A stretch of DNA of 38,120 nt, from contig JAAYIA010000027.1 in NCBI GenBank assembly GCA_012735145.1, positions 1 through 38,120 on the forward strand, in the 5' to 3' direction. Source of the stretch: Clostridiales bacterium (GTDB lineage Bacteria; Bacillota; Clostridia; Peptostreptococcales; Anaerovoracaceae). Shown here one piece after another: positions 2,244 to 13,186 of the stretch. The notes beneath the pieces were generated by a model. The model made no database searches. It was not told where the DNA came from and saw nothing but the letters and a program-made list of their open reading frames with translations. Position numbers and translations under genes: made by a program. Position 1 is the stretch's first letter. Each line of letters begins with the position of its first letter.

Positions 2244-4766
2244 TTACTCTGTATCTATTGTAAGTTGTTCGTTACCGTCGTTTCCAACATTAGGCGATAT
2301 TTCGTGAGAAGTATTCCCAGGTTTGGCCACGTTTTCCTCATCTACGACTTTTGCAAAGGACACTATACGATTATTTTTTCCTACCTTCATAATCTTAACC
2401 CCTTGAGTGGTCCGTCCCGACTGGCTGACTTCATTCGCTCTGATTCTTATTATAACACCGTCGGAATTTATTACCATTATTTCATCATCGTCACTTACCA
2501 ACGTTGCTCCAACCAGAAAACCTGTTCTCGAGAACTTTAACCTATCGTATGTAGCGACGCCTTTACCACCTCGTGCCTGGAGTCTGTACTCATCCAGTTG
2601 GGTTCTCTTGCCAAAACCCTTCTCTGTTATGACAAGCATCTTTCTCTTCTGATCGATATCAAGGTTCATCGATACCACCTCATCATTCTTCTCAAGAAGA
2701 ATTGCTCTGACTCCACCTGCGTTTCTACCCATAGGTCTTACGTCGTCTTCGGAGAAAACAATCGCTTTACCTTCCTTCGTTACAACAATTATATTTTCTT
2801 TCCCGTTTGCCGGAGCAACTGCTATAAGCTTATCTTCGTCCTTGAGGTTAATTGCTATCAGTCCTGCTTTGCGGTTTGTATCAAACTCTGATAGAGGAGT
2901 TTTCTTAATCGTTCCTCTCTTTGTAACCATAACAAGGCAGTTATCATTATCAAAGTCTCTAATTGGAATAACTGCTGTTACCTTTTCTGAGCTATTTAGG
3001 TGCAGGAAATTGATTACAGGTGTTCCCTTTGCTGTTCTTGAGGCTTCCGGAATTTCGTAAGCTTTAATTTTGTATACTCGTCCCATGTCTGTGAAGAACA
3101 TCAAATAATCGTGGGTACTTGTTATAATCAGATCGCGGACAAAATCGCTATCTCTTGTAGTCAGTCCCACGATACCTTTGCCTCCTCTGCGTTGCGCTTT
3201 GTATGTATCGGCAGGAACTCTCTTGATATATCCAAGATGCGTAAGGGTTATAGCAACATCTTCTTCGTCTATCAGCGTTTCCTCATCAAGCTCCCCTTCA
3301 TCTGCAACAATTTTAGTTCTTCTTGTATCTCCCCACTTATTCTTGATTTCGAGAAGCTCTTCTTTGATAACCTCCATAAGGAGCTTTTCGTCAGCTAGAA
3401 TCTTCTTATAGTAAGCTATTTTTTTCTGAAGCTCTGCGTATTCTTCTTCTATTTTTTCTCTCTCAAGACCCTGCAACTTAGCCAGTCTCATATCGAGTAT
3501 TGCCTGTGCTTGGATTACAGATAGACCGAACCTCACCATCAACTTCTCTTTGGCATCATTATAAGAAGCTCTGATTGTCTTGATAATTTCATCAATATTA
3601 TCAAGGGCAATAATGAGACCCTCCAATATATGTGCTCTGGCCTCAGCTTTCGCAAGGTCGAATCTTGTTCTTCTTGTTACTACAACTTTCTGATGCTTGA
3701 GATATTCGACGAGAATCTGTCTTAGATTAAGTATCTTAGGTTCTCCATCTACAAGAGCCAACATTATCATAGAGAATGTTGTCTGAAGAGCTGTGTGTTT
3801 GTATAGACGATTAAGGATAATATTAGGATTAACGTCTTTCTTGAGCTCAATAACAATCCTTGTTCCTTCACGGTTTGACTCATCTCTGATTGCCGATATG
3901 CCCTCTATCCTTTTTGATTTAACAAGCTCTGCCATCGACTCGATAAGTCGAGATTTGTTAACTTGAAAAGGAATCTCGGTTACGACAATTTTTGTCCTGC
4001 CTTTTGTCGACTCTTCAATATCACATACCGATCTTACTTTTACTCGTCCCGTTCCTGTACGATAAGCTTCTTTCGCAGCATTTTTGCCCAGAATTGTAGC
4101 TCCCGTAGGAAAATCCGGTCCCTTGATTATCTTAATCAAGTCCTCAATGTCACTTTCAGGTTCATCAATAAGCTTGACACACGCATCTATCGTTTCCGTT
4201 AGATTGTGAGGAGGAATTGATGTTGCCATTCCAACCGCGATACCGTTCGACCCATTAATTAATAGATTCGGCACTCTTGATGGAAGAACTACAGGCTCTT
4301 GTTCCTCCCCATCAAAGTTATCCATAAAATCAACAGTGTTTTTTTCGATATCTCTCAGCATCTGCATGGAAAATGGTGACATTCTTGCTTCGGTATATCG
4401 CATTGCCGCTGCCCCGTCACCATCAACCGATCCGAAGTTACCATGTCCGTCTACCAGTGGATATCTCGTACTAAAGTCCTGTGCGAGCTTAACCATCGCA
4501 TCATATATTGAACTGTCTCCGTGAGGGTGATATTTACCCATTACTTCTCCGACGATTCTCGCTGACTTCTTATGTGGTTTATCTGGCGTCGTTCCCAACT
4601 GCTGCATTCCATACAAAATTCGTCTATGTACAGGCTTAAGACCGTCTCTTACATCCGGCAGTGCACGGCCTACGATTACGCTCATAGCATAATCTATATA
4701 CGAATTTTTCATTTCATCGTATATTTCTTGTTCTATAATTGTGCTGTTATCTAATAAATCTGCCAT
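2244..4766 (-). CDS. gyrA: DNA gyrase subunit A
   Basis: [54 protein letters not shown], GyrA box QRRGGKG. Confidence 0.98.
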
Positions 4767-4784: not shown

Positions 4785-6794
<2,010 letters not shown>

Positions 6795-6842
6795 TTATGC
6801 TTCTCATTTTTTAACGTCGTTATTTTACCATATAAGCGTCTT

Positions 6843-6918
6843 TTGTGCAATAAAACAACAGTATGTTGTGTTTTTGCAAAAAGCTCTTAAATCGAAGATT
6901 TTTGCGTTTTATGCACAA
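6843..6918 (-). promoter_or_regulatory. Structured intergenic element (candidate three-way junction / cruciform) between recF and gyrB
   Basis: Outer arms TTGTGCA-A-TAAAAC (6843-6856) / GTTTTATGCACAA (6906-6918), with internal hairpins ACAACA-GTA-TGTTGT (6855-6869) and GCAAAAA...TTTTTGC (6876-6905, extended by TCTT/AAGA). Confidence 0.55.
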
Positions 6919-6953: not shown

Positions 6954-8201
6954 TTAATATTTATCCACTCTGGTCATTGTACCGTCTTCGACTCTAAAAA
7001 GAGTTCCTCCTTCCAAATCTCTTATAACCTTATCGTTGATTTCTGCTGATGTAATAAAGAGCTGTACGTCATCAATTTCACTCACTAAAAACCTCTGTCT
7101 ATCTAAATCAAGCTCTGAAAAAACATCATCCAGCAGTAGGATAGGATTTTCTTCCATAATCATTTTGGCCATCCTAATCTCTGCCAACTTTAGAGCAAGT
7201 GCAATCGTTCTCTGTTGCCCCTGAGATCCGTATTTTTTTGCATCCTTTCCATTTATATAGAATTCGAGGTCGTCCCTATGCGGACCAATCGTTGCACTTC
7301 CCGCATAAATATCCTTCTCTCTTCTGTGACAGATTTGTTTGTATAAAATTTCTCTGCCTTCCGGTACAGTTACAAAATCGCACGTTGTTTTATATTCTAC
7401 TCGAAGATCTTCACGATCTCCCGATATCTTCCTCACTATTTCGGATGCCTCTGCAGAAAGCATCTCAACAAAATCCTTTCTATATCTGATTATTTCATAT
7501 GCAGTATCTGCCAGTTTTCTATCATAGATATCAAGCATTTCTTCATTGAACCTGCGACTGTTGTCATAGCGATTACGCGTTTCTTTTAACTGATTTCCCG
7601 GTTCTTCTTTTTTCTCACTGAGCTCCTTTCCCATAACAAGGGCTTCATTTAACACCAAATTATCAGCTCTGGTAAAAGTCTTCTTGCTGACATTGAAATA
7701 TCCTTTGAGCAAAGCATTCTTCTGGCGCAGGGTTTCACTATACTCCCTGAGCACCTCATAATATCTCGGTCGTATTTGCGATATTTCACTGTTAATAAAT
7801 GTCCTTCTTCTCTCCGGACTGTCTTTGATAATGCGTAAATCGTCAGGCGAGAACATAATTACCACTATAGTGTTCAAAAGGTCTGATATCTTTTTAATAA
7901 CCTTTCCATCTTTTTTTATCATTTTCTTGCCATCAGGCCTTATAACTATATTTATCTTTTTATCGAGATTATCGCTTACAATTTCTATACCTATATGTCC
8001 TTGATTTGCACCAAACGAAACCATCTCTCCTGCATTGTTAGTTCGAAAAGATTTCGCAAACGCTGTCATATATATAGCTTCAATAAGGTTTGTTTTCCCT
8101 TGTGCATTTTCGCCAACTATAATATTTCGGCTCTTATCGGGAACAATTTCTAAGCTTTTGTAATTTCTAAAGTTTTCAAGGATTATTTTTTCTATCCTCA
8201 T
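6954..8201 (-). CDS. recF: DNA replication/repair protein RecF
   Basis: MRIEKIILENFRNYKSLEI, GENAQGKTNLIEAIY, GSQGQQRTIALALKLAE, ILLLDDVFSELD. Confidence 0.97.
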   Translation of the reverse strand: MRIEKIILENFRNYKSLEIVPDKSRNIIVGENAQGKTNLIEAIYMTAFAKSFRTNNAGEMVSFGANQGHIGIEIVSDNLDKKINIVIRPDGKKMIKKDGKVIKKISDLLNTIVVIMFSPDDLRIIKDSPERRRTFINSEISQIRPRYYEVLREYSETLRQKNALLKGYFNVSKKTFTRADNLVLNEALVMGKELSEKKEEPGNQLKETRNRYDNSRRFNEEMLDIYDRKLADTAYEIIRYRKDFVEMLSAEASEIVRKISGDREDLRVEYKTTCDFVTVPEGREILYKQICHRREKDIYAGSATIGPHRDDLEFYINGKDAKKYGSQGQQRTIALALKLAEIRMAKMIMEENPILLLDDVFSELDLDRQRFLVSEIDDVQLFITSAEINDKVIRDLEGGTLFRVEDGTMTRVDKY

Positions 8202-12834: not shown

Positions 12835-13186
12835 TTTAATACTCCTTAATTTCTTATCTTTGTAATAACTATTATTAGGTTGCTCTCTAAATTCCAAAAG
12901 CATACATGCCAAAACATTATAATTTAAGGACTTTTACAAGTCAAATTTTAAACAACTTCTTGAGCATTTATTAATCTTTTTCTTGTGTCTAAATAAAAAA
13001 CATTCTTTACAAAAAGATAGTTATACACAACATGTGGTATCTCCTTTAATTTATTAACAATTTTATTAACAATATGTGGAAAACTTTCTTTTTGATATAT
13101 AACTTACTTTAATTTTCTTCATTTTAAGCATTTGAATATGTGGATATCTTTATGTAAAATATGTTAATAACGATTAGGAGATACAT
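12835..13186. other. oriC: Putative oriC (rpmH-dnaA intergenic)
   Basis: AT-rich gap between rpmH and dnaA; TTATACACA (13021-13029); near-consensus reverse boxes TGTGGAAAA (13076-13084) and TGTGGATAT (13139-13147); tandem 12-mer TTTATTAACAAT x2 (13050-13073). Confidence 0.75.

Follow-up and report, generated by a model that had tools for sequence, protein, structure and literature searches.

Does the 76-bp cluster of inverted repeats at 6843–6918, in the gap that separates recF from gyrB, act through a folded structure, or does it mark something else in the control of gyrase? The window, meaning the whole 38,120-nucleotide stretch of DNA that was analyzed, is one contig (C76) of a 1.13-Mb assembly that is 83% complete. 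On its minus strand lie gyrB (4785–6713; ATG at 6713), gyrA directly downstream of it (2244–4766), and recF as the upstream neighbor of gyrB (6954–8201; stop end at 6954). The two gyrase genes match NCBIfam TIGR01059 and TIGR01063, respectively, above the cut-offs, and recF matches TIGR00611. The recF-gyrB gap of 240 bp holds the element, which is noncoding and lies between the recF stop and the gyrB ATG, just as the initial annotation had expected. Among the named relatives of the window recF, Mogibacterium MAGs of rumen or gut origin predominate, and the relatives considered below belong to the GTDB genus containing Mogibacterium, from which 35 gyrB upstream regions were aligned (alignment A1).

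The inverted repeats and their fold

The repeats exist as the initial annotation described them: a left outer arm, TTGTGCA-a-TAAAAC (6843–6856), and a right outer arm, GTTTTATGCACAA (6906–6918), enclose the palindrome ACAACA-gta-TGTTGT (6855–6869) and a second inner inverted repeat, GCAAAAAGCTCTTAAATCGAAGATTTTTGC (6876–6905). The fold also beats shuffled controls, both for the minus-strand RNA of the element (−20.4 kcal/mol, z −2.5; 2 of 200 shuffles equally good) and for the plus-strand DNA (z −3.5; none of 200 as good). Almost every base was said to be able to pair; the arms are real, but bases 6855–6856 are claimed by both the outer arm and the palindrome, and therefore all the drawn pairs cannot form simultaneously.

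In the 35 relatives, pairing in the proposed three-way junction amounts to 55.2%, against 54.5% in column shuffles, and 79 of 500 shuffles are as high. The outer helix is paired in 40.5% of cells, covariation within the junction is absent, and the pairs of the linker palindrome, which reads ACAAnATnTTGT in the relatives and is imperfectly kept, are not maintained. The initial annotation had itself named the want of compensatory changes and conserved pairing as the outcome that would speak against it, and with regard to conservation this is the outcome obtained. Judged from the alignment, the three-way junction is specific to the window's lineage, as is the left outer arm. No Rfam family matches the element at the gathering threshold, at which one unrelated glycine riboswitch alone appeared. 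The suggestion of a small mobile unit of the MITE or REP kind is at odds with the single match that the element gives in its own assembly, there being one copy per genome, and that of a processing site found no support. A DnaA-box role for TTATGCACA (6909–6917), in the right outer arm, was set aside, as such matches occur in the window at chance frequency and the box is missing from the aligned relatives.

The gyrBA promoter and a motif shared with the chromosome terminus

A promoter for gyrBA can be read on the minus strand at the left edge of the element. Its extended −10, TATGGTAAAAT (6822–6832), contains TAAAAT at 6827–6822, and a −35-like TTGCAC (6845–6850), which overlaps the left outer arm, stands 17 bp before TAAAAT; a promoter scan picked TGCACA, which overlaps TTGCAC, at a spacing of 16 bp. 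Because these −10 and −35 sequences (6822–6850) fall partly within the element and partly just beyond its downstream end, the greater part of the element lies 5′ of the likely start site, and the leader RNA that had been proposed is probably not what it encodes, read-through from recF being possible.

A blastn search with the gap placed the element upstream of gyrB in 30 of the 46 other genomes of the genus. Across the 35 aligned regions TATATG[GC]TAAAAT and TTGCA are near-invariant, and the promoter block (TTGCA ... AAAAATCGCTTATATGGTAAAAT) is almost unchanged, with −35, spacer, and extended −10 alike. Farther upstream lies a second block, GGCGAAAATTTTCGATTTAAGGGATTTTTT, with a less conserved linker, ACAAGATATTGTG, in between. 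The upstream block resembles the promoter block on the opposite strand, that is, it contains the same motif of ~25 bp in inverted form; the promoter-embedded copy is called P and the upstream one U. Mean pairwise identity is 93% for the promoter block with copy P, 81% for copy U, and 71% for the linker, compared with 39% in the upstream flank and 50% in the rest of the 5′ UTR. When MATE or HTH-Uma2 ORFs split recF from gyrB, the element remains with gyrB, and at two loci (L027 and L095) it remains with recF, a membrane-protein ORF lying between the element and gyrB. The MATE efflux gene is divergent from gyrB at L135, L136, L137, and L131, with the element in between, and the HTH-Uma2 ORFs are found in the recF-gyrB gap of L132, L134, and L136.

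A genus-wide scan for the block revealed the gyrB site and, in most cases, a single additional site in each genome, designated TM. Its 21-mer is matched in 39 of the 47 genus genomes, while the reversed control pattern gave 0 matches. TM falls within the 5-kb bin of the GC-skew and gene-strand switch in all three genomes tested, and because both switch at TM, it is considered to be located at the replication terminus. At three mismatches or fewer, a level at which some matches are due to chance, it is found in 55 of 92 family genera. The terminus TM, but not the gyrB copies, resembles dif in being a single copy at the GC-skew switch. Its core does not form two palindromic arms around a 6–11-bp center, and the reading of TM itself as dif was rejected in favor of a nearby palindromic 32-mer, ACTATTCCsAAAATTATGATTTTAGGAATAGT, with a linked Xer gene. 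This probable dif of the family is located near a gene for a ~390-aa Xer in the conserved synteny miaA-xer-...-LysM, and TM is a separate motif 0.1–0.8 kb from it in most relatives. The canonical 28-bp dif had no convincing match near the terminus. In the window's own genome (G000) TM was not found beside dif, although a dif-like 32-mer is present on contig C83 (L368:10681–10712), as it is at L171, L172, L180, L222, and L228. Folding of 73 TM copies gave no consensus structure, and TM is therefore best read as a DNA motif. An inverted upstream TM copy at the terminus, seen in G286 and G247, is not orientation-specific in general, and the reading of an AAGGTAT box as a hairpin is not general either. 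Among the ~48 other genera inspected the gyrB dyad was not found, except for a partial resemblance in genus g89 (L278 and L279), where TTTTAGAGCCTCTATGCTAAAAT upstream of gyrB joins the tail of the terminus motif to an extended −10; this is possibly an independent or diverged version.

Copies U and P were scored with a matrix built from 32 chromosome-terminus sites of other genera, in which no gyrB sequence was included. In 35 of 35 genomes the matrix detects each gyrB half, the two lying on opposite strands, and the U–P spacing is 54–57 bp in all of them (56 in 28), so that the promoter carries two related sites as an inverted pair in fixed geometry. This spacing could also stem from the overall architecture of the promoter, and since copy P overlaps the promoter, its conservation partly reflects promoter constraint. 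Relatives score mostly 11–25 for copy P and up to 38.6 for copy U, and the highest score among 2100 shuffles is 14.8; in a few genomes one half does no better than the best shuffles, namely the upstream half in L126 and L138 and the promoter half in L122 and L014. Both copies are degraded in the window: copy U, GCAAAAAGCTCTTAAATCGAAGATTT (6876–6901, plus strand; pattern match at 6878–6898), scores 15.4, exceeding all shuffles, and copy P, ACAAAAGACGCTTATATGGTAAAATA (6821–6846, minus strand), whose 21-mer AAGACGCTTATATGGTAAAAT occupies 6822–6842, scores 11.1. These scores are weak, but the strands and geometry match the conserved pattern. The region might instead be no more than a promoter of unusual conservation preceded by an AT-rich UP element, its likeness to TM being mere convergence, and the upstream DNA is AT-rich and the extended −10 is present. 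Such convergence is quite improbable, as in nearly every genome the scores from a matrix of unrelated loci far exceed those of shuffles, the inverted geometry is fixed, and the reversed control pattern gave no match.

The U/P arms, when read as RNA, show no covariation, and an RNA structure formed by them is not supported. The same arms bear on the earlier proposal of a supercoiling-sensitive cruciform, in which the repeats would extrude at high superhelicity and the promoter would be shut off. The overlap of the left arm with the −35 and the z of −3.5 for the DNA-strand fold would suit it, but arm pairing is not kept in the relatives and the U/P arms do not covary, so we regard a cruciform as highly improbable. 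The best explanation of the junction fold is that it is a by-product of the inverted U/P copies together with lineage-specific changes.

A putative operator and attenuator, and their alternatives

Following the −10, most relatives in the alignment have a GGGC...GCCC stem and a T-run within about 40 bp of the promoter, an intrinsic terminator in the position of an attenuator. Covariation in this stem is 0.227 versus 0.167, and none of 500 shuffles reaches the score; the terminator folds well in many relatives and weakly in several. Neither the window species nor its closest sister has it. The gyrB 5′ leader of the window (6714–6821, minus strand) is without it, leader folding detected no terminator in the window, L003, L095, or L127, and the start of the leader folds at 0.0 kcal/mol in the window versus up to −17 in relatives.

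On balance we lean toward the view that 6843–6918 forms the upstream half of a control region for gyrBA found throughout the genus, which would consist of an attenuator and a two-site operator whose DNA-binding factor is also active at the terminus, and part of which has been lost here. The sharing of the motif and its position are measured, and from these we infer the regulation of gyrBA. A sequence-specific DNA-binding factor predicted to act at the terminus would also bind U and P, and contact with the two sites would probably be made at a fixed helical phase, through looping or a double-dimer complex. The bound pair might occlude or tune the gyrBA promoter, and the terminator would then attenuate the transcript. 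The window species and its sister have lost the terminator, no terminus TM was found, and the copies are degraded, so that control at this level has probably weakened there. Two further observations count against the operator: in one subclade (G044 and G033) the terminus TM has diverged, with a change in mid-motif, while the gyrB copies have not, so the two do not always covary, and G030 has strong gyrB copies, yet no recognizable TM near its dif. As to the initial annotation, a real noncoding element that is probably concerned with gyrase control remains, whereas the three-way junction as a conserved structure does not; its inverted repeats point at something real and functional-looking, for which a folded structure is the wrong level of description.

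TM also occurs outside host chromosomes. About 30 IMG/VR phage contigs (L348–L355 and L388–L424) carry TM with the AAGGTAT box, usually 20–100 bp 3′ of the stop of a gene and in places beside integrase or lysis genes, and TM is also present on a conjugative element; the exact dif 32-mer is in none of the viral contigs. In G194 (L425:799–2234) two GIY-YIG ORFs lie between recF and gyrB, each followed by a TM copy. In G045 a full recF (C13:1407–2612) is accompanied, about 10.5 kb away, by a duplicated recF 3′ end of 24 residues (13,089–13,160) that adjoins the gyrB element, a pattern suggestive of integration at the 3′ end of recF. Such contexts raise the possibility that TM serves for site-specific recombination or attachment, the recF-gyrB copies being remnants of a mobile element acquired by insertion in the ancestor of the genus and retained as promoter DNA. 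The positions of TM at the integrase edges of several phages (L352, L391, and L412), on the conjugative element, and after the GIY-YIG ORFs agree with this idea, as does the recF 3′ end, which in G045 resembles an integration hot spot. However, a separate palindromic dif-like site with a linked Xer is already present, TM-bearing phages often bring their own integrase, and the mid-motif change in G044 and G033 was not followed by the gyrB copies, so that an origin in recombination, though one of the two main rivals to the operator, seems to us unlikely.

We hold to be similarly doubtful the idea that gyrase binds TM strongly, as it does the SGS of phage Mu, and would in this way bind U/P and autoregulate gyrBA, while the terminus and phage copies would serve decatenation or supercoiling. 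Gyrase would be relevant in all three contexts, namely its own promoter, the terminus beside dif, and phage genomes. In addition, a second, ParE-like match exists in only 7 of 39 genus genomes (G007, G008, G010, G015, G029, G036, and G040), which suggests that gyrase may be the sole type II topoisomerase in many relatives, but the incompleteness of the MAGs weakens the absence of ParE. TM is, moreover, a short, high-information 21-mer, whereas the known sequence preferences of gyrase are diffuse. In the framework of the two-site operator, gyrase is nonetheless an attractive candidate for the factor. A more far-reaching version, which we put forward only tentatively, is that the terminus factor, perhaps gyrase, binds the inverted U/P pair and thereby makes the supply of gyrase responsive to the state of the terminus, while phages use their copies of the site for recruitment or titration of the factor.

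Relation to known systems

Little is known about how the level of gyrase is set in nonmodel organisms, and the setting here is gut and rumen bacteria, many of them apparently without topoisomerase IV. If the operator is real, a promoter with terminus-like sites would provide a direct and testable link from chromosome topology or termination to gyrase expression; the sharing of the terminus signal hints that gyrase supply and chromosome-end biology have a factor in common. TM, common to host termini and phages, is apparently an undescribed motif. No paper on the Mogibacterium gyrB promoter was found in the open-licence literature, and among the titles and abstracts listed there none dealt with a gyrase promoter that carries a terminus motif. 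As the window carries a decayed element, the relatives rather than its own genome are suited to studying it.

Relaxation-stimulated gyrA and gyrB promoters are known in Escherichia coli and other bacteria, and the present locus is like them in placing gyrase control at the promoter and, in many relatives, in having a GC-rich sequence 3′ of the −10. We know of no such promoter described with a paired upstream motif common to the chromosome terminus. The terminus of the family appears to be of the XerS/difSL type and distinct from the classical XerCD dif: XerS/difSL is a single-recombinase system, and the palindromic terminus site of the family, near the ~390-aa Xer gene, resembles the difSL arm TTTCCGAAAA (PMC5357621). 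TM and the gyrB copies are separate from that site and do not have its palindrome. The strong gyrase site of phage Mu is similar to TM as a single intergenic site on phage genomes with a possible link to gyrase. Looping operators consist of two inverted or separated sites, and the arrangement at gyrB, with one site over the promoter and a second about 55 bp upstream at near-constant phase, is like theirs; it differs in that the regulator is putative and in that the motif is also found at the terminus and on phages.
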